From positions 513,013 to 577,012 of the forward strand of contig JAFQCG010000001.1 in the NCBI GenBank assembly GCA_017416535.1: a DNA stretch of 64,000 bases, read 5' to 3'. Under the pieces are notes generated by a model. The model saw nothing but the letters and a program-made list of their open reading frames with translations, made no database searches and was not told the DNA's origin. The translations under genes and the position numbers were made by a program. Below are positions 1-11,200 of the stretch, piece by piece. Position 1 is the stretch's first letter, and each line of letters begins with the position of its first letter. The stretch is from Bacilli bacterium. GTDB taxonomy: Bacteria; Bacillota_I; Bacilli_A; RF39; UBA660.

Positions 1-1977
1 ATACTTAAGTGATTTATCTGCATCATAAATTCCTTGAGCATAATTTCTAATCATTTGAGTATCTTCTTTTGAATATTCTGTTTTCTTAACTTTTACATCA
101 AATTCACTTTCTTTATACATTTCTCCTTCAAAAGGATAGTGGTTTTGTGCTGTTGCACTCATAATGAATTTGTAGTTACCTTTAGATGTATCTTTTAATT
201 CTTCATAGATTGTATCCATAAATGCTTTGTCTGATAACCAACGACCTTTCTTTTCACCATCTACATTATAAATAGTTCTATCTGTTCCAAAAGAGTCATA
301 GTTCTTTTTACTTTTGTAAGAAGTTGGTGCCCATGGTGTTAGATACATTGTTTCATATCCATTATTATTAAATTCTTTAATAATGTTTGGAGCATTCTTT
401 CCTGTAAATTTATTATAGTATTGATTATATGGATTATATCCTGATTTCCAGAATGATAGGGAAGCACCTGTTAGAATTTCAAATTCTGTATTAACACTTC
501 CACCTGCGATAGTAGGTACTTGTAAATCAAATACCATTTTATCTTTATCATTTTCATAATCATCAAATACTTCAAGTAATGGTTTATCAAATTTAACTTC
601 ATCGATGTTTTCTAAGTCAGAGAATGATTCTGATAGGATAAATACTACATTTGCTTTTCCCCAACTATCATCATTGTCTTCAGCTTTTTTTAATAATTCT
701 TTAACTTTTAATGGAGTGTATCCTTCTGGTACATTATCATCAATATATAATGTATTAGCATACATTCCTTGGAAGAATCCATACTTATCATATAAGTCAT
801 TTACTGAATTAAATTTTAATAATTCATCATTTGATGTACGATAAATTTTTTCAATTGCAAATTTAGAATAATTTTCATTAACAATAAATATTGTAAGTAG
901 AAGAACTACTGCTACTGCTAGACCAATAAGTCTATTTTTAATACTATCAATTTTGATTGATTTCTTTTTAAATAAAAATATAAAGGCGATTGCTGCACCA
1001 GCTACGATAACAGTTTTACCAATTGTTGTTAGAATCCACCAACTAATACTGTTACCAGCTTCACCCATCATAGCCATATTAGCTGGATTTAAATAGTTAA
1101 CATCAGATACTTCTAATGGAAGTCCCATAACGTTATATTTAATATCACTAATAACCATTATTGCTAATGAGATAATTAATAGAGTAATTAAAGCTCTACT
1201 AGATTTTTTTGTAATACATAATAATATAATAAATATTAAATCAATGATTGCCATTAATAGTAAGACAACTAAAAAGTTTTGTGGAATTGCTTTGATTGTT
1301 GCCTTAATACTTTCTAATATAGGTAAGTGACTTAATTTATAAAATAAGTCTCCAGATACTATTAAGTATAATGGGAATATTAAAAGGTATAATACATATT
1401 TGTTAAGTACTTTATCAAAAATCTTTGCTACATTAACTTTTGGTATGTGTATTTTTAAGATAAATGATATTCCAAGTACTAGTAATAATATTGGCATTAC
1501 TGTTTTAAGTAATTCTACATTGAAGTATCTTAGAATTAAATAAACAATAGGGTATACGATTGAAGCAGTTGTAATTGGTACTCCAATGAATCCACCTTTT
1601 TTATTTTCTTCTGTAACACTTAATGTATTGAAGTAAGCAAGTCTGATTACTCCACATAATACATAGAATGCACATATTACTTTTGTAATAAGACTAGGAG
1701 ACATTGCTGCTGTTATTGTTGCAGGGACTACTCCGAAGCATATTACATCTGATAATGAATCAAGCTGTACTCCATAAGCTTTTTCCATTTTGGTACTTTT
1801 AGACATGCGAGCTACAGTACCATCAAAAGCATCGCAAATTCCACTAACAACCATACATAGTACAGCCATAGTGAAATGTTGACTTAACACTAACATTAAT
1901 CCAATAAATGAAAATAATGTACCAGTCATTGTGATAAAGTCACATTTTCGGTAAAAACCGATAATAAATTTTTTCAT
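1..1977 (-). CDS. PssA-LtaS fusion: CDP-alcohol phosphatidyltransferase fused to LTA-synthase-like sulfatase (3' end outside window)
   Basis: One uninterrupted frame of 659 codons runs from ATG 1977 to the window edge. Residues ~1-190 form a phosphatidylserine-synthase-like membrane domain with the CDP-alcohol phosphotransferase signature, read as DAFDGTVAR followed by GVQLDSLSD (Asp/Gly/Arg/Asp positions all present). More membrane segments follow (~195-375). From ~residue 440 comes an extracellular sulfatase/LtaS-type domain with SESFSD (metal-binding Glu region), AGGSVNTEFEILTG and SATAQNHYPFEGE. At the usual nucleophile Thr (GGGT in relatives) I read Ser. The family would transfer phosphatidyl to serine and glycerophosphate from phosphatidylglycerol to a growing lipoteichoic acid. 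The fusion is unusual; these are normally separate genes. SD is AAGAAG; the promoter is TGCTATAAT on the minus strand at 2027-2019. The last sulfatase metal ligands lie outside the window. Confidence 0.85.
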   Translation of the reverse strand, partial: MKKFIIGFYRKCDFITMTGTLFSFIGLMLVLSQHFTMAVLCMVVSGICDAFDGTVARMSKSTKMEKAYGVQLDSLSDVICFGVVPATITAAMSPSLITKVICAFYVLCGVIRLAYFNTLSVTEENKKGGFIGVPITTASIVYPIVYLILRYFNVELLKTVMPILLLVLGISFILKIHIPKVNVAKIFDKVLNKYVLYLLIFPLYLIVSGDLFYKLSHLPILESIKATIKAIPQNFLVVLLLMAIIDLIFIILLCITKKSSRALITLLIISLAIMVISDIKYNVMGLPLEVSDVNYLNPANMAMMGEAGNSISWWILTTIGKTVIVAGAAIAFIFLFKKKSIKIDSIKNRLIGLAVAVVLLLTIFIVNENYSKFAIEKIYRTSNDELLKFNSVNDLYDKYGFFQGMYANTLYIDDNVPEGYTPLKVKELLKKAEDNDDSWGKANVVFILSESFSDLENIDEVKFDKPLLEVFDDYENDKDKMVFDLQVPTIAGGSVNTEFEILTGASLSFWKSGYNPYNQYYNKFTGKNAPNIIKEFNNNGYETMYLTPWAPTSYKSKKNYDSFGTDRTIYNVDGEKKGRWLSDKAFMDTIYEELKDTSKGNYKFIMSATAQNHYPFEGEMYKESEFDVKVKKTEYSKEDTQMIRNYAQGIYDADKSLKY

Positions 1978-2516: not shown

Positions 2517-3908
2517 ATGGCATATATTTATGATAAAAAGTCTCATTGGCATGCTTGTAAAAGAGAAGTTTTAGAGAATAGAATAAAAAAAATAAAAGAT
2601 GGAGATTATTCTGATTTTTTCGACTATTCTAGTGATTTTTGGTTAGCTTTATGTATTAGTTATTTCACATTATCTTATGAAAAAGTATGGAAATCTAACG
2701 ATCACAGTGTTCATAGCATTTTAAATACTTTTTTTGATGAAAATCTAGATATTAAAGTTAAAGATGCTGTTTATAATTTAGCTGATCAAAGTGGTTATGA
2801 TATGGAAATGTTAAAAAAGGAAAATGAGGAATATTATAACCAGATTTATTTTGATTTAAGACAACAAGTTAATGTAGCTGGTATAGATGATTCTGGAATG
2901 GTTTCTGAGAATTGGGCAGATAATATAAAAAAAATGAACCGTAATGCTAGACGTTTAGGAGTGCTAAAAGAAAAGATTACTCGCAATTATATTTTACATA
3001 GTATGGCTAAACTTAATATTGGTAAAGAAGATAAGATTAGTATTCCTGTTTCCACTAATAATGAATATGACTTACCAGTAGAATGGTTGGTAAGTTATGT
3101 AGATGCATTGTGTTCACCTGTAAGATATTTTTTAGATGAAAGACAATCATCTTCATATACGTCTGGAGAACCAGTTTTAGATGAATTGGGTAGAATATAT
3201 AATTTATATACAGCTAATATGAGTTTAATGGACAATTATAAAGAATTTAAATGTGATGATTTGGTTAAGAGATTATTAAAACCTGGAATTACAACTGAAG
3301 AAAAAGATGTAATTTATAGTAGTATTAAGGAAAAATTAAGCGATAATCCTGTTCTTTATGATCGTATAGGTGACTTAGTTGCTGCTAAGAATGAAATGGA
3401 GTCTAAGAAAGAAAATGTATTAGCTGCTTTATTATCTGTTGCTAGTATAAATATGTTTGTTCTTAATTATCAAGATTGTTTTAAATCTGGATTAAATCCT
3501 AAAAATAATGGACCTTTTAATGCTGAAAGAGATGATGTTAGAGATCTTTATGGTAATGGAAGTTCTATTCCTGGAAGAATGGGATTTCAAAAGAACGGAG
3601 CTTCTGCACCTGGTACTTTAAGAAATTGTGTGTCTCATCCCGGTAGACTTACTGTTAAATATGAAGGTGGCACTTATAAGGTGACAATGCAAGATAGAAA
3701 TGATAATAATGATCCTACAGGTAGTTTCAATACAGATTTAGATACTTGTATTGAATTTTTAGAACATCCTTTTTTTGAAAAGAATATGGTTACTTCAATT
3801 AAATCAAGTGATGTTGTTGGTGTAAGACAAGAATTAGAGGCAATGTTTGATGATACAGATAAACAGGATGCTACAGCTGCAAGTCATAGTACAGGTGCAA
3901 AAAAATAG
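2517..3908 (+). CDS. Unknown protein with a HEPN-like RX4H signature
   Basis: 463 aa. I chose ATG 2517 because GAGGGAG (2502-2508) sits 8 nt upstream; the in-frame ATG at 2496 has no SD. The protein is helix-rich and lacks a signal peptide. Near the C-terminus is LRNCVSHPGRL (R369-H374), an RX4H motif followed by beta-like segments and QDR. This resembles the end of pEaNAY-type HEPN domains, whose members are often RNases or their inactive relatives. The first 300 residues match nothing I recognise. The gene is flanked by its own promoter and terminator. HEPN assignment is inference from a short motif. Confidence 0.5.
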   Translation: MAYIYDKKSHWHACKREVLENRIKKIKDGDYSDFFDYSSDFWLALCISYFTLSYEKVWKSNDHSVHSILNTFFDENLDIKVKDAVYNLADQSGYDMEMLKKENEEYYNQIYFDLRQQVNVAGIDDSGMVSENWADNIKKMNRNARRLGVLKEKITRNYILHSMAKLNIGKEDKISIPVSTNNEYDLPVEWLVSYVDALCSPVRYFLDERQSSSYTSGEPVLDELGRIYNLYTANMSLMDNYKEFKCDDLVKRLLKPGITTEEKDVIYSSIKEKLSDNPVLYDRIGDLVAAKNEMESKKENVLAALLSVASINMFVLNYQDCFKSGLNPKNNGPFNAERDDVRDLYGNGSSIPGRMGFQKNGASAPGTLRNCVSHPGRLTVKYEGGTYKVTMQDRNDNNDPTGSFNTDLDTCIEFLEHPFFEKNMVTSIKSSDVVGVRQELEAMFDDTDKQDATAASHSTGAKK

Positions 3909-3935
3909 AAATATCGAAAAGATATTTCTTTTTTT
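3908..3935 (+). terminator. Intrinsic terminator after the HEPN-like gene
   Basis: Stem GAAATATC / GATATTTC with a GAAAA loop and a T-tract, starting in the stop codon. Confidence 0.75.
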
Positions 3936-4001
3936 ATGGTCTAGTCTTTTTTATAAATTAGTTGTATAATAGTTTTAATAATAGTCAAAGTAGGTGAAAC
4001 G

Positions 4002-5039
4002 ATGACTTTCGGAGAAAAGGATTATAAAGGGAAATTATCTTATATCGAAAAGTATTATAAAGATGATACTTTATTTTTTGCTGCCTACTTAAATAATTAT
4101 AATAATTTTCATATTTATATTAGAATTGACTATATTGATAAATTAAAATGTTATAAACTTAGATGGTTTGATTTAGATTTCGTTAAAGATAGTAAGATAG
4201 TAAAATATGAAAGTAGTGAAATGGTAGAAGAAGATGTTATTGATACTATTGAAAAACTTTGTACTGTTATGAGTGTTGATCAAAAGAAAAACTATTGGGG
4301 TAAAGAAAATAATGTTGGTATCTATATTGATGCTAAATGTAAAAATAGTGATGAAGTTAAAATTAAATTTTATAAATATATTCCAGAAACTCAAGAAGCA
4401 TTATATCAAATAATGAGTATTATATTTGAGATTGTTCCTAGAAAGTTATATCCATTCTTTGAAGAAATTGGTTATATATTTAATGGAGGAGCAGATACTT
4501 TTGAATATGAGAAAAGATTTAGGTTTGATTTATTTAAGGGAGACTTAGATAAAGTGTTTAATATTCCTACTTGTGTTAGAGGTACTAGATACTATGATGA
4601 AAGAAGAGTCTTATTCTTAGAAAAAGTTGATGATAGATATTTTGCTGTTGTTAATGGAAATGAACTATATTTAGTAATTATTAAATATGATGAAGTTAGT
4701 AAGGATATGCAAGTATATTGTTCTTGTCCTTGTGATGTTTTCTGTAAACATATTTATGCAGTGATAATGGCTATTCGTGAAAAAGATTTTAAACCATTTT
4801 ATAAAGTAATGCCTAAGAGAGAATATACTGATATGTTTGATAAGTTAATGAATATTAATTATACTTTTTCTATTGGAATGGTAGAAGATGTTATTGGTAT
4901 CATTGGTGAAGATGGTTATATTGAATGGTTAAATATATTAGATGAAGATAATAAATCTAAATGGATTATTGTTGAAGATGATGATAAACAAAGATTTACA
5001 AAGGCAATGACTAATTTTTTAGATAGTTGTGAAAAATAA
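4002..5039 (+). CDS. SWIM zinc-finger protein
   Basis: 345 aa with a SWIM finger at residues 240-250, CSCPCDVFCKH (CxC...CxH), followed by a hydrophobic helix typical of the domain. SWIM fingers bind DNA or protein. In bacteria they often sit in proteins near Snf2-type helicases, but no helicase is adjacent here. The 230-residue N-terminal part is acidic and Tyr-rich with no recognised domain. The SD is AGGTGA. A terminator follows at 5038-5060, so the gene is a single unit. Confidence 0.7.
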   Translation: MTFGEKDYKGKLSYIEKYYKDDTLFFAAYLNNYNNFHIYIRIDYIDKLKCYKLRWFDLDFVKDSKIVKYESSEMVEEDVIDTIEKLCTVMSVDQKKNYWGKENNVGIYIDAKCKNSDEVKIKFYKYIPETQEALYQIMSIIFEIVPRKLYPFFEEIGYIFNGGADTFEYEKRFRFDLFKGDLDKVFNIPTCVRGTRYYDERRVLFLEKVDDRYFAVVNGNELYLVIIKYDEVSKDMQVYCSCPCDVFCKHIYAVIMAIREKDFKPFYKVMPKREYTDMFDKLMNINYTFSIGMVEDVIGIIGEDGYIEWLNILDEDNKSKWIIVEDDDKQRFTKAMTNFLDSCEK

Positions 5040-5060
5040 GCATCGTAAAGATGCTTTTTA
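5038..5060 (+). terminator. Intrinsic terminator after the SWIM gene
   Basis: Stem AAGCATC / GATGCTT with a GTAAA loop and a T-tract. Confidence 0.75.
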
Positions 5061-5097
5061 TTTTGTGTTGTGATATTCTTATTATAGAGGTGTAATT

Positions 5098-6264
5098 ATG
5101 GTAATAGTAAAGGCAAGTAAAGAAGAAAAAGAAATTAAGAAACAAAAGATGGAAGAACTTTATGAATATAGAAAGTATCTTTATGAACATCCAAAACTAT
5201 ATCATTTATTTTTAGAAGTTACATCTCGTTGTAATGCTAGATGTGAACATTGTGGTAGTAGTTGTGGTTATGAAAAACCTAAGAATGAAATTAGTAAAGA
5301 AAAGTTAATGGAAACATTGAAAGAAATTTCAGAACATTATGATGCAAGTGAAATATTATTAAATGTTACTGGTGGAGAACCATTCTTAAGAAAAGATTTA
5401 TTTGAGATTATGGATTATGCAGTAAGTTTAGGTTATAGATGGGGAATTACTTCTAATGGTATTTTAATTGATGAAGAACTTGTTAAAAAAATAGTTAAGT
5501 CTAAGATGAGTACTATTTCTATTAGTATAGATGGATTAAAAGAAACACATGAAGCATTTAGAAAAGTTCCTGGTGCTTGGGATAAGATTATTAAGGGAAT
5601 AAAACTTATGCTTAATGAACCTAGTATTGAATGTGTTCAGGTTACTACTGTTGCTAATAAGAAAAATATTAATGAATTAGAAGAATTATATAAAGTAGTT
5701 TTAGATTTAGGTGTTAAGTACTGGAGAGTAGTTAACTGTGATCCTATTGGAAGAGCTAAAGATAATGATGAGATTTTATTAGATCCAAAGGGTTATAGAA
5801 AGTTATTTAAGTTTATTTATGAAAAACGTAAAGAAAATAAAATAGTTGTTGATTATGGATGTAGTCATTATTTAGGTCTTAATATGGAAAAAGAAATTAG
5901 AGATCAACATTTCTTTTGTATGACAGGTTTATATGTAGGTAGTATTTTAAGTAATGGTGATATATTTGTATGTCCTAATGTTGAAAGAAGAAAAGAATTA
6001 ATTCAGGGAAATATTAATACTGATAGTTTTGTAGAAGTATGGGAAAATAAATTTAAAGAATTTAGACATGAGAGAAGAACTTCTTGTGATGATTGTCTTG
6101 CTTGTAGTCATTTTAAATATTGTGGAGGAGATTCTTTTCATACTTGGAATTTTGATGATAATAAACCTAATATTTGTATAAAGAAGATTTATAAAGAAGA
6201 AAAAGATGATAGTGACAAAAAACGTAAGAAAAAGAAAAGTGAAGATAAATTTTTAGTTGTATAG
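5098..6264 (+). CDS. Radical SAM/SPASM protein
   Basis: 388 aa. The radical SAM cluster motif is CNARCEHC (C45, C49, C52), and the SAM-binding GGE is in TGGEPFLRKD. The C-terminal third (~280-370) carries many cysteines in a SPASM arrangement, including CPNVE and CDDCLACSHFKYCGG, which would bind auxiliary 4Fe-4S clusters. SPASM proteins typically modify peptides or proteins, such as RiPP maturases and anaerobic sulfatase-maturing enzymes; the substrate is unknown here. The stop TAG is built into the SD (TAGGAGG) of the downstream 67-aa gene, 8 nt away, suggesting coupling and a common function. Confidence 0.85.
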   Translation: MVIVKASKEEKEIKKQKMEELYEYRKYLYEHPKLYHLFLEVTSRCNARCEHCGSSCGYEKPKNEISKEKLMETLKEISEHYDASEILLNVTGGEPFLRKDLFEIMDYAVSLGYRWGITSNGILIDEELVKKIVKSKMSTISISIDGLKETHEAFRKVPGAWDKIIKGIKLMLNEPSIECVQVTTVANKKNINELEELYKVVLDLGVKYWRVVNCDPIGRAKDNDEILLDPKGYRKLFKFIYEKRKENKIVVDYGCSHYLGLNMEKEIRDQHFFCMTGLYVGSILSNGDIFVCPNVERRKELIQGNINTDSFVEVWENKFKEFRHERRTSCDDCLACSHFKYCGGDSFHTWNFDDNKPNICIKKIYKEEKDDSDKKRKKKKSEDKFLVV

Positions 6265-6272
6265 GAGGATTT

Positions 6273-6476
6273 ATGGATAATAGAAAACCTAAAGTTAGTT
6301 GGTTTGATGAGTGTTTACAAGTTTCACTTTTAAAACTAACACAAATATCTATTATGGAGGATTTAACTATTCCACAAGTAAAAGCATACTTTGATGAAAT
6401 AATTAATGATCTATATGAAATGGAGAAAATTGAAAAAGAAAAGAAGTCTAAAACTGAAGAAGATGCTTTAAGTTAA
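6273..6476 (+). CDS. Small protein coupled to the radical SAM/SPASM gene
   Basis: 67 aa, not recognised. It has a predicted helical N-terminal half, one Cys (residue 14) and a charged Lys/Glu-rich C-terminus. It lacks a leader/core layout typical of a RiPP precursor, so it may be a partner rather than a substrate. It has a strong TAGGAGG SD sharing the stop of the upstream gene, and a terminator at 6476-6504 closes the two-gene operon. Confidence 0.6.
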   Translation: MDNRKPKVSWFDECLQVSLLKLTQISIMEDLTIPQVKAYFDEIINDLYEMEKIEKEKKSKTEEDALS

Positions 6477-6504
6477 ATAATCTAGTATTGCTAGATTATT
6501 TTTT
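6476..6504 (+). terminator. Intrinsic terminator of the radical SAM operon
   Basis: 10-bp stem AATAATCTAG / CTAGATTATT with a TATTG loop and a T-tract. Confidence 0.8.
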
Positions 6505-6539
6505 ATGAGTATAATATAATGTAATTAGGAGGGTTCAAA

Positions 6540-7223
6540 ATGATTAGTACAAGTAGTTATAAGAATTTTGATACAAATTTATATAGAAGATGTTCTATAT
6601 CTGGAGATAGGGGTCATAATGCAAATTTTTTTGGAGATTGTTTTCCTGAACTTGCACCTAAGAAAGATTTTTGGCAAAAGTGGCATGATAATATCGGTAA
6701 GATTTCTGAAGAAGAAAATGCTAGATATTACATAGAAGAATATTATAAACAGGTTTTATCTAAATTAGATCCAGAAATGGTTTATAGAAAGTTAGATCAT
6801 TGTACTTTATTATGTTATGAAGATAGTGATGAATTTTGTCATAGACATGTAGTTGCGGCATGGTTTAATTTATTACTTGGTGATACAATTCAACCAGTTG
6901 TTGAAATTGCATGGGAAGATGGAAAATTAGTTCGTTTGGATGATGTATCTAGTAAGTATTCAGAAATACTTGAAGATGTTATTAGAAGTAATGAAAAAAT
7001 GTGTGGATTTACTTCTGTTAGAGCGAGATATTTATTTGATCAAGGTGAAAAGTTAGAAGCAGAGGCAAGTCAAAAAGAACTTGATAATCCAGGTGTTTCT
7101 TATGACTATATGAGACAAGCTGCTTGTTATAGAAGATGCGATGCAGATGAAGCAGAAGCACAATATAAAGCAGCACAAAAGATGAAAGCAAAAGGTGTTA
7201 AAACAGATGATAAAAAAGATTAA
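6540..7223 (+). CDS. DUF488-like protein
   Basis: 227 aa. The core LLCYEDSDEFCHRHVVAAW matches the DUF488 signature (LLCYE...CHR), a conserved Cys-His-Arg. Upstream, WQKWHDNIG and a Lys/Leu-rich helix also fit. The biochemical role of the family is not settled. The C-terminal 70 residues are helical and Ala/Glu-rich, looking like a TPR-type helix pair. The SD is AGGAGG. The 3' end overlaps the start of the ATPase gene by 17-29 nt, so the two are probably translated together. Confidence 0.7.
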   Translation: MISTSSYKNFDTNLYRRCSISGDRGHNANFFGDCFPELAPKKDFWQKWHDNIGKISEEENARYYIEEYYKQVLSKLDPEMVYRKLDHCTLLCYEDSDEFCHRHVVAAWFNLLLGDTIQPVVEIAWEDGKLVRLDDVSSKYSEILEDVIRSNEKMCGFTSVRARYLFDQGEKLEAEASQKELDNPGVSYDYMRQAACYRRCDADEAEAQYKAAQKMKAKGVKTDDKKD

Positions 7224-8275: not shown

Positions 8276-11200
8276 ATGAAGAAGGGTAAACTTGTATTAA
8301 AAAATAATATAAGAAAACTAATACTTGTATTGGTATTAGTTTTATTTGTGTCTTTATGTACTTTTGTTACTATTAATACTTTTAAGAAAAGTAAAATTGA
8401 TAAGGTATTAGAAACTTCAAGTTATTCTTATTTACCTAAAGAAGCAAAGAATTTTATTAAGGAAGTATATGAAGAAACTGGTGAAGTTGTTCTAACCGAA
8501 AAGAATAAAAAAAGTAATGCTCCTTATTTGAATACACAATATATAGCTTATTTAGAGTTAAGTGAAGAAGAAAAGAAAAATGTAGGGTATATACCTGATG
8601 TTTATACTGTTGATTATATAGAAAATGATAATTATGAAGCTGATACTTTAGAAGCGCAATTTGATTTAAAGGATTATGTTACTACAACAAGAAATCAAGG
8701 TACTCTTGGAATTTGTTGGACTATTTCTTCTGTTGAAAATGTTGAGACTTATTTAATGTGGAAAAATAAGGAACCATTTAATGCTAATTCAAAGATTTTA
8801 TCAGAAAGACAATTTGATTATGCTACTTCAACTAACGGTATGTATTATAAACAAGGTACTAGTAGTACTCAATATACTTGGAGTAATTCTAGTAATGGGT
8901 ATAGACCATTAACTAGTGGTGGTAATTATTATATGTCTGCAGTTGCGATGAGTAATGGGATTACTTTAACTGATCAAGATGTTTTACCATTTAGTGAATC
9001 TACATCTAAGAAGAAACCTGAAGAAATACTTAATTTTAATAATTCTTTATATGAAGCTAATGCAACAATTCAATTACCTATGATAAATACAGATACTGCT
9101 ACTGATAGTGAAATTAGTAGTTATACTACAATGGTTAAAAATTATATTAAAGAATATGGTGGATTATTTATTGGTACTTATTCACCACAATCATCTTGTG
9201 GATTTAAAAATACTGATGGTACTTATGCAATGAAGACAGATGACTGTGCGAATGTTAATTCTGATTTGGGACATGCGATGCAGTTAGTAGGTTGGGATGA
9301 TAATTATAGTTATACTTATTGCGATAAAGGTACTAGTCATAGTGAATATACTGCTAGTTGTGGTAGTACATATAAAAAGACAGGTAAAGGTGCTTGGATA
9401 CTTAGAAATTCATGGGGAGAAGGACATGGATATGAATATGTTTATTTAACATATGATTCTACTAGATTATCAATTGGTTTTGTTACAGATATTTCTGAAA
9501 TGAGTAATAGAACTTGGGATAATAATTATCATGTAAATATTGTAGATGACGGTTCTTTATATTTAACTAGTGATCAAACTATAAATTTAAATAAGAAAAT
9601 TGATAATATAGAAAAGATTGAAAAAGTTAAATTTCATCCCTTAACACAAGGTGGAAGTTATACTTTAAAGATTACTTCTAATGATATTAATTATTCAGAA
9701 ACTGTTAGTATTGATGAAATGGGAATTTATACATTTGATTTAAGTGATAAGAATTTATTAGTTGATGAAGATACTTTGAGTTTTAGAATTATTGGTAATA
9801 ATAGTGCTTCTTTCTTATATAGTTCAGGTTCGTTATTTACTTCAAATGTAAGTGATGAAAAGATGGTTAAGGCTGTTAATGGATATGAAACTAAAAGTGA
9901 AGATAGTTCTATTCCTTCTTTAGAAAATCCTATTTATATAGATGGTAATTATGGAACTATGATGTTAGAGTATTATACAAGAAATATTCCGGCAAATGCG
10001 GATATTAGTTTTAGAGCTATTAATAAAAATGGTGAAAATTATACTAATTATTTATTTAGTTCTAGTCAAATGAATAAAATTGTTTTAGATGGATATATTT
10101 ACTTTAATCCAGGTGTTAGAACTGGTAGTAGTGAATATAGTGATAAACCTGTATGTGGTGAAATTTTTGATTTAGAAATTTTATATAATGGTGAAGTTAT
10201 TGATACGATTCCTGTTAAGAGAATTTGTAATGATAAGACTACAAAGTCTGTAATTAATTTCCATGCTAATGACGGAAGTGGTTATGTTTCAAGTATTAGT
10301 AAGAATGATTTATATGATATTCAGATGATGAATGCTGATGGTACTGGTAGAGAGTATATTGGTTTAGAGAAGAATTTCTTCCATGCTGATAAACATATTG
10401 CATCATGGAATACTAAGAGTGATGGTACTGGTACTAATTATACAACTAATACATTCTTGTTATATGCAAATAAAGATTTATATGCTCAATGGGTGCTTGG
10501 ACATACTTATAAATTAAATTATCAATGTGCAAGATATATATGTGATGATGCTCTTATTGTTAGTAGAAATTATAGTAAAGAGTATGATCAAGAATTTGTA
10601 ATTATGGAAAACTCTTTTGAAAATTTAAATGGTGATGGTTTCTTGTATTGGTTGGATGATGATACAATTTATTATCCAGGTGAAACGGTTAATAATTTAG
10701 CTGATAAATCATCTCCATATAATGATGACGATAATGTATTTTTAGTTGCGGAATGGGCAGAGGATTATAAAACTGTTACTTTTGATAGTAATGGTGGTAA
10801 AGGTACTATGAGTAGTATTAATGTTAAGACTAATACTGATAGTAGATTAAAGTATAATTCATTTACTAAAACTGGTGCTGCATTTAGAGGATGGACTACA
10901 AATAGTGATGGTACTGGTACTAGATATACAGATGGTCAAATTATTAATATTAGTAGTGATATAACTTTATATGCACAATGGAATAATACAAAATATAATG
11001 TAAGATTTGATGCTAATGGTGGAACTGGTTCTATGGATATTCAAGAATTTGAACATACTGTTAGTGGTAATTTAAATGAAAATAAATTTAGTAGAGTTGG
11101 TTATACATTTAAAGGATGGAATACTAAGAGTGATGGAAGTGGAGCAAGTTATACTGATAAACAAAGTGTTCTTGATTTAACAGAAAATGTTGAAACAATT

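Follow-up and report, generated by a model that had tools for sequence, protein, structure and literature searches.

A predicted phosphatidylserine synthase fused to a GacH-like phosphotransferase recurs among relatives of a Bacilli bacterium

In the genome of a Bacilli bacterium (G000; about 1.5 Mb, 96% complete), we found a single gene that joins a predicted phosphatidylserine synthase (PSS) to a phosphotransferase of the LtaS superfamily. The gene lies at the start of the 64,000-nucleotide stretch of DNA that was analysed (the window). Because the fusion recurs full length in eight further genomes and both halves are under purifying selection, we conclude that it is neither a product of chance nor an assembly join. 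We propose that it is a bifunctional make-and-use membrane enzyme, for which phosphatidylserine (PS) would be the donor and which would move phosphoserine to a surface glycan; we hold this reading with slightly less than even confidence. The protein has the following features, given in window coordinates.

1..1977, minus strand: PSS-phosphotransferase fusion P0001, N-terminal 659 of 800 residues (open reading frame and Pfam)
1414..1977, minus strand: PSS domain, residues ~1-188, with six predicted membrane helices (Pfam; helices from AlphaFold2 on the homologue L087 and from the charge pattern)
1747..1833, minus strand: CDP-alcohol motif and serine-site residues, D49..D52-G53..A56-R57..G69..D73-S74..D77 (alignment; residue roles after the available text of PMC8633023)
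748..1413, minus strand: five predicted membrane helices of the transferase half, residues ~189-410 (AlphaFold2 on L087; charge pattern)
1..747, minus strand: extracytoplasmic sulfatase-fold phosphotransferase domain, residues 411-659 within the window, whole domain to ~800 (Pfam, alignment and fold match)
496..498, minus strand: S494, predicted nucleophile, equivalent of LtaS T300 (alignment)
310..339, minus strand: substrate-loop motif T547-P-W...S553-Y554-K-S556, where LtaS and GacH have a His and an Arg that bind glycerol phosphate (alignment)

The initial annotation had described a single intact frame, and this is what we observe. Starting with the ATG at window position 1977 on the minus strand, the frame stays open for 659 residues until the window ends, and the complete gene encodes 800 residues (G000:C4:512587-514989, equal to L004:7588-9990, minus strand). 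On the 894-kb contig that holds the window, the gene extends 425 bases past the window start, so that the window coordinates miss the last 141 residues. A domain search of the full protein detected CDP-OH_P_transf at residues 13-166 (53.5 bits, cut-off 22) and Sulfatase at residues 443-689 (81.7 bits, cut-off 25), both above the Pfam cut-offs. The junction of the two halves has no nearby start codon, the sole candidate within residues 170-261 being an ATG at residue 242. An AlphaFold2 model built on L087 (48% identical to the fusion; 37-row alignment; mean pLDDT 85.9, pTM 0.75) and the charge pattern predict a topology of six plus five helices, with the N-terminus in and positive charge inside. 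The helix count and charge pattern would fit a cytoplasmic PSS active site and a transferase domain outside the membrane.

When scoring the 385 genomes of the order-level draw, we found the full-length fusion in seven (G000, G332, G236, G271, G094, G362 and G369) and the two genes adjacent in G139; at most two candidates per genome were scored here and at most seven in the family-level draw, so transferases may be undercounted in both. Within the class-level draw (247 genomes), the fusion occurs in the window's own genome only. A pattern scan of genome contigs returned 38 loci; its patterns represent the transferase half only, so that it says nothing on PSS alone. According to a domain search of these loci, eight are fused, ten have the two genes adjacent (pss first in seven, the transferase gene first in three), one is a cluster with the PS decarboxylase gene psd between pss and the transferase gene (L110), and 19 show no PSS at the locus. 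Genomes already present in the draws (including G006 of the family-level draw) match six of the eight fused and two of the adjacent loci; L089 and L090 are additional fusions. In total, the fusion is found in nine genomes including the window's own, and in 11 more genomes the two genes are neighbours or share a cluster, whichever of them comes first. The named relatives are metagenome bins assigned to uncultured Bacilli, Tenericutes, Erysipelotrichaceae and Clostridia, and several carry labels that point to 'Lapin' or rumen samples. The suspicion that homologues are split and that the fusion is an assembly join is thus borne out in its first part only: homologues do occur as two genes, yet these are then neighbours, and the fusion is found repeatedly. 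A mobile origin is not backed either, since a tblastn search of P0001 against plasmids and phages gave partial matches only, and none of the 102 and none of the 22 records with a match covers 80% of the protein; among the matches listed, these fall in the transferase half. We found no description of the fusion in the open-access literature that was searched.

The C-terminal half had been read as an LtaS-like sulfatase that consumes phosphatidylglycerol (PG) in LTA-type polymerisation. Its place in the LtaS superfamily stands, but its closest solved structure is GacH. The transferase domain of the L087 model matches GacH with Z 33.8 (5u9z; rmsd 2.8 over 358) and Z 33.7 (6dgm), compared to Z 26-29 for LtaP and LtaS (2w5q, 4uoo and 4uop), and Foldseek ranks GacH first too. 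The matches to EptC (Z 17.8) and MCR-1 (Z 16) are well below that of GacH. These two enzymes and PptA belong to the same superfamily and were compared for likeness of working: they take head groups from nitrogen-bearing phospholipids (with the donor of PptA open), and we know of no fused lipid-synthesis domain in any of them. GacH of Streptococcus pyogenes adds glycerol phosphate (GroP) to the group A carbohydrate, and to our knowledge it is not fused to a PSS. The fusion has the same extracytoplasmic phosphotransferase fold as GacH and SccH, its S. mutans counterpart, and their glycan-cluster setting is also seen in several relatives of the fusion. However, GacH has the His and Arg of the GroP site and a Thr nucleophile, whereas the fusion has Thr and Ser at the site and, as predicted, a Ser nucleophile. 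For the phosphorylcholine transferase PptA, the donor is still open in the available text of PMC10434233.

The substrate loop separates the fusion further from LtaS and LtaP, with which it has the superfamily, the metal site and the five-helix-plus-domain plan in common. The available text of PMC4973235 lists H416, W354, F353, D349, H347 and R356 as the GroP-binding residues of LtaS and reports that activity depends on H347, D349, R356 and W354. In the sequence alignment, LtaS H347, D349, W354 and R356 correspond to T547, W549, Y554 and S556 of the fusion, so that His347, Asp349 and Arg356 are all replaced. The equivalents of H347 and R356 are Thr and Ser in all nine fusions. Moreover, none of the 36 rows of the transferase clade that holds the fusions (support 100) has either the His or the Arg, whereas all 10 rows outside it have both. 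The window's own genome also encodes a separate protein of the LtaS type (L005), which keeps the GroP-binding motif and aligns to nearly the whole LtaS equivalog model NF053595 (304.9 bits, below the cut-off of 970), whereas P0001 has no match to this model at E<=0.001. We therefore reject LTA synthase as the main reading, based on the lost GroP-site residues and the separate LtaS-type protein; neither the consumption of PG nor the proposed polymerisation is supported. The initial annotation is thus supported in part: the second half is a phosphotransferase of the LtaS superfamily, but it is nearest to the glycan-decorating GacH and not to an LTA polymerase. The replaced His and Arg would also argue against the use of PG, short of proof.

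It could nevertheless be that the transferase still uses PG and adds glycerol phosphate to a glycan as GacH and SccH do, while the PSS supplies PS for the membrane or its charge balance and the coupling is only spatial or regulatory. We consider this unlikely. GacH is the nearest fold, SccH takes GroP from PG according to the available text of PMC11754754, and PgsA is present in the window's own genome. In addition, the scan contains 12 transferase-clade members that are not linked to a PSS, and six of their genomes have no detected PSS (G428, G433, G436, G438, G442 and G448); some members must therefore use another donor. G428 lacks any CDP-alcohol gene and is thus incomplete, which leaves five such genomes; due to these PSS-less members, loss of the His and Arg alone is no proof of a PS or phosphatidylethanolamine (PE) donor. 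Against the use of PG, the GroP-binding equivalents are gone from the entire clade, and a PG donor would leave it unexplained why the transferase gene is linked to pss in either order and, in three clusters, to psd as well.

The distribution of psd points away from PE synthesis as the role of the fused PSS. The gene is present in 57 of the 385 genomes of the order-level draw. It occurs in none of the eight genomes with a fused or adjacent pair but in 45 of the 46 with a separate PSS (Fisher 8.6e-9; the comparison covers the 55 genomes matching the fusion minus G263, which matches in the transferase half only, and the genomes are related, from 5 versus 23 genera). The one separate-PSS genome without psd is G256. 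Among the 145 genomes of the family-level draw, PSS was found in 24 (setting aside a weak match of G090), 19 of them with psd; those without are G000, G006, G094, G139 and G042. The transferase half is present in seven of these 24 genomes and in none of the 121 others. In the genomes of the scan, psd is absent from seven of the eight with a fusion and from eight of the 11 with linked genes. The psd-bearing fused genome (L089) has a second PSS beside psd, and the three psd-bearing linked genomes (L102, L106 and L110) each carry psd inside the transferase cluster. No psd was found in the window's own genome. The PSS at the transferase locus is the only one found in 18 of the 19 fused or linked genomes. 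As psd is missing from the fused and adjacent genomes of the order-level draw, the fused PSS does not feed PE synthesis. The transferase thus travels with whichever genes of the PS branch are present, and in the fused lineage this is PSS alone.

Alternatively, PS could be decarboxylated by an unrecognised enzyme and phosphoethanolamine transferred from PE, as in EptA/MCR/OpgE-type enzymes. The three clusters that hold the same transferase family with psd speak for this, and L106 adds a phospholipid N-methyltransferase-like gene. We still regard a PE donor for the fusion as improbable, given that psd is absent from its own genome and from seven of the eight other fused genomes. Furthermore, G416 and G422 have only one CDP-alcohol gene besides the fusion and G000 has two PgsA-like genes, so that no Kennedy-type route to PE is seen. 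The L106 cluster itself (L106:680-4666) has the order transferase, pss, PmtA/OlsG-like methyltransferase, psd. The best NCBIfam matches of its 182-aa methyltransferase-like gene are ornithine-lipid and phospholipid N-methyltransferases, under cut-off, which suggests a methylated-PE head group as donor in that cluster. L102 has a similar gene set in which the methyltransferase frame looks broken. Elsewhere, a flippase-like gene of the LPG-synthase-TM type is next to a PSS gene pair linked to psd (L159:4275-6899), and L110:685-1761 looks similar by eye.

We next turn to the N-terminal half, for which the CDP-alcohol phosphatidyltransferase of the initial annotation is upheld by motif, serine site and fold. 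The motif DxxDGxxAR(x8)GxxxDxxxD is complete in P0001 and in eight of the nine fused domains, the copy of G369/L092 being degenerate. In the available text of PMC8633023, the PSS of M. jannaschii holds serine with Asp62, Ser63, Asp66 and Phe105. By alignment, these correspond to D73, S74, D77 and F116 of P0001, which are the same in PSS genes that adjoin psd. The set D49, D52, G53, G69, D73, S74 and D77 is complete, with F or Y at 116, in 31 of 31 separate PSS genes outside clade A (defined below) and the Ruminiclostridium-type outgroup. Most of these 31 are near psd, thus their product should be PS. The first domain of the L087 model matches the PSS structure 7b1k with Z 18.5 (rmsd 2.3 over 167 residues, 34% identity). 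Compared to type II PssA and archaeal PSS (7b1k, 7pow), the fusion has the same motif, serine-site residues and fold, but it carries a transferase domain and is outside any psd operon. Arg104 of the archaeal enzyme is Tyr in the fusion, as in most PSS genes of the family; we reject this residue as a marker of fused versus psd-linked PSS, since it is common to 24 of the 31 separate genes. Taken together, sequence and model comparisons make a PSS well supported. It is highly improbable that the domain has shifted to another alcohol and makes a different phospholipid whose head group the transferase uses. Such a shift would be in line with the NCBIfam scores, where PssA and archaetidylserine synthase models match but all below cut-off (86.4 bits for TIGR00473, pssA, against a curated cut-off of 107). 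However, PSS genes linked to psd have the same serine-site residues, and one of them (L046) has an even lower score of 61.8 bits.

The transferase tree places all fusions on a single branch (support 93) with the adjacent pairs L097, L094 and L095 next to it, as would be expected from one fusion event. In the PSS tree (60 rows; a quick method, with many weak forks), the fused domains group with the PSS of the linked loci L094, L095 and L097 and with four separate PSS genes from G077, G256, G047 and G316, here called clade A (SH-aLRT 96). The other separate PSS (99), L111-L116 (94) and L102/L106 (93) fall elsewhere. Purifying selection acts on both halves; for the two closest pairs, dN/dS is about 0.2. 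In G369, six of ten motif positions are gone from the fused PSS domain, and an intact PSS gene lies directly downstream (L084:8024-10462, 10539-11120). The pN/pS of this degenerate domain is 0.88 against L096, compared to 0.64 for the intact pair L096/L091 and 0.28-0.31 for the closest intact pairs, with synonymous sites partly saturated. PSS activity thus seems to be kept in trans in G369. In G094 (L039), the fused and a stand-alone PSS are both intact. That neighbours fused neutrally, lacking functional coupling, or that the gene is an assembly or frameshift artefact is barely credible: the single branch means that the fusion may have arisen once, but recurrence in nine genomes, selection on both halves, adjacency in both gene orders elsewhere and the lack of a junction start codon contradict it, and we reject assembly join, frameshift and pseudogene alike.

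The gene neighbourhood often includes a GtrA-type gene. In the window's own genome, a 132-aa GtrA-family gene overlaps the 3' end of the fusion by 17 bases, and GtrA-type genes also adjoin the fusion or pair in G332, G236, G271, L089, L097/G006, L094 and L095 (called by Pfam for the own, L094 and L089 copies and by likeness for the rest). None was seen beside the fusions of G094, G362, G369 and L090, nor next to the pairs of L102, L106, L110-L112 and L114-L116. The neighbours of several fusions include glycosyltransferases, an O-antigen-ligase/glycosyltransferase fusion or an epimerase-like gene, whereas we saw no polysaccharide genes beyond gtrA around the fusion in its own genome. The four clade A genes sit in polysaccharide clusters. 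In G077 and G256, an OpgB-type sulfatase gene adjoins the PSS gene (the model match was run on the G077 copy), and in G047 a 1207-aa O-antigen-ligase/WecG/TagA glycosyltransferase/sulfatase-fold protein is encoded between the PSS and GtrA-like genes (L158:6855-10478). No sulfatase-type neighbour was seen by eye for the clade A gene of G316.

Other neighbouring genes were observed along the way. Just upstream of the fusion in G332 (L080:4437-6260) lies a UbiA prenyltransferase gene, followed by one for a HAD phosphatase with a fused GtrA domain; the two may belong to a polyprenyl-phosphate pentose pathway. Some 1-7 kb past the window start, on the same contig, a probable defence island adjoins the fusion operon (L004:1468-2832, 3835-4608 and 4601-6928), with PADLOC matches for a SIR2/ThsA-like protein (2.8e-22) and a HamB-like helicase (4.7e-57); the 257-aa partner of the helicase has no PADLOC match. 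Within the window, a radical-SAM-like protein, recognised by eye, is encoded at 5098-6264. Its best PADLOC match is the prokaryotic viperin model (4.9e-24), and it may simply be another radical-SAM family.

Based on homology, motif and fold, the N-terminal domain of the proposed make-and-use enzyme would produce PS from CDP-diacylglycerol and serine on the cytoplasmic side. PS would then reach the outer leaflet, and the overlapping GtrA-type gene is, as a guess, a candidate helper of this transfer. By analogy with the family, the GacH-like domain outside the membrane may take the head group onto Ser494 and pass it to a surface glycan, releasing diacylglycerol. Since the genome has neither a PS decarboxylase nor another PSS, the donor is most likely PS and the transferred group would be phosphoserine. 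The linkage in both gene orders, the predicted topology, the selection on both halves and the intact PSS beside the degenerate domain of G369 speak for this reading. Against it are the PSS-less members of the transferase clade, the psd and second PSS in the genome of L089, and the absence of polysaccharide genes other than gtrA around the fusion in the window's own genome. We know of no precedent for phosphoserine transfer in this superfamily. The open-access literature searched (subscription papers were outside its scope) yielded neither phosphoserine transfer to glycans nor a phosphoserine-transferring enzyme of the superfamily. More tentatively, and with confidence somewhat below even, we suggest that the fusion represents a new headgroup-transfer chemistry, with PS as donor and phosphoserine moved onto a surface glycan, and that the wider clade is tuned to the donor that its cluster makes. 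This donor might be PS where only pss is present, PE with pss and psd (as in L110) and perhaps N-methylated PE with pss, methyltransferase and psd (as in L106).

Both halves belong to known families; what is new is the fused make-and-use architecture, its link to genomes lacking psd and the altered donor loop. The head groups used by known enzymes of the superfamily come from PG, PE or perhaps PC that the membrane already contains. With the fusion, a cell may instead produce a lipid head group and use it up in the same place, and in the case of phosphoserine this would be new. If the donor is PS, this would be new chemistry; if it is PG, the fusion would be curious but modest. A transfer of phosphoserine would imply a surface modification in gut bacteria of which we know no record, and, speculatively, it could matter to host recognition. 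The make-and-use reading would explain why PS synthases exist in genomes that have no PS decarboxylase. If one protein both synthesises a lipid and is built to consume its head group, it would illustrate how bacteria can reserve lipid synthesis for decorating their surface.
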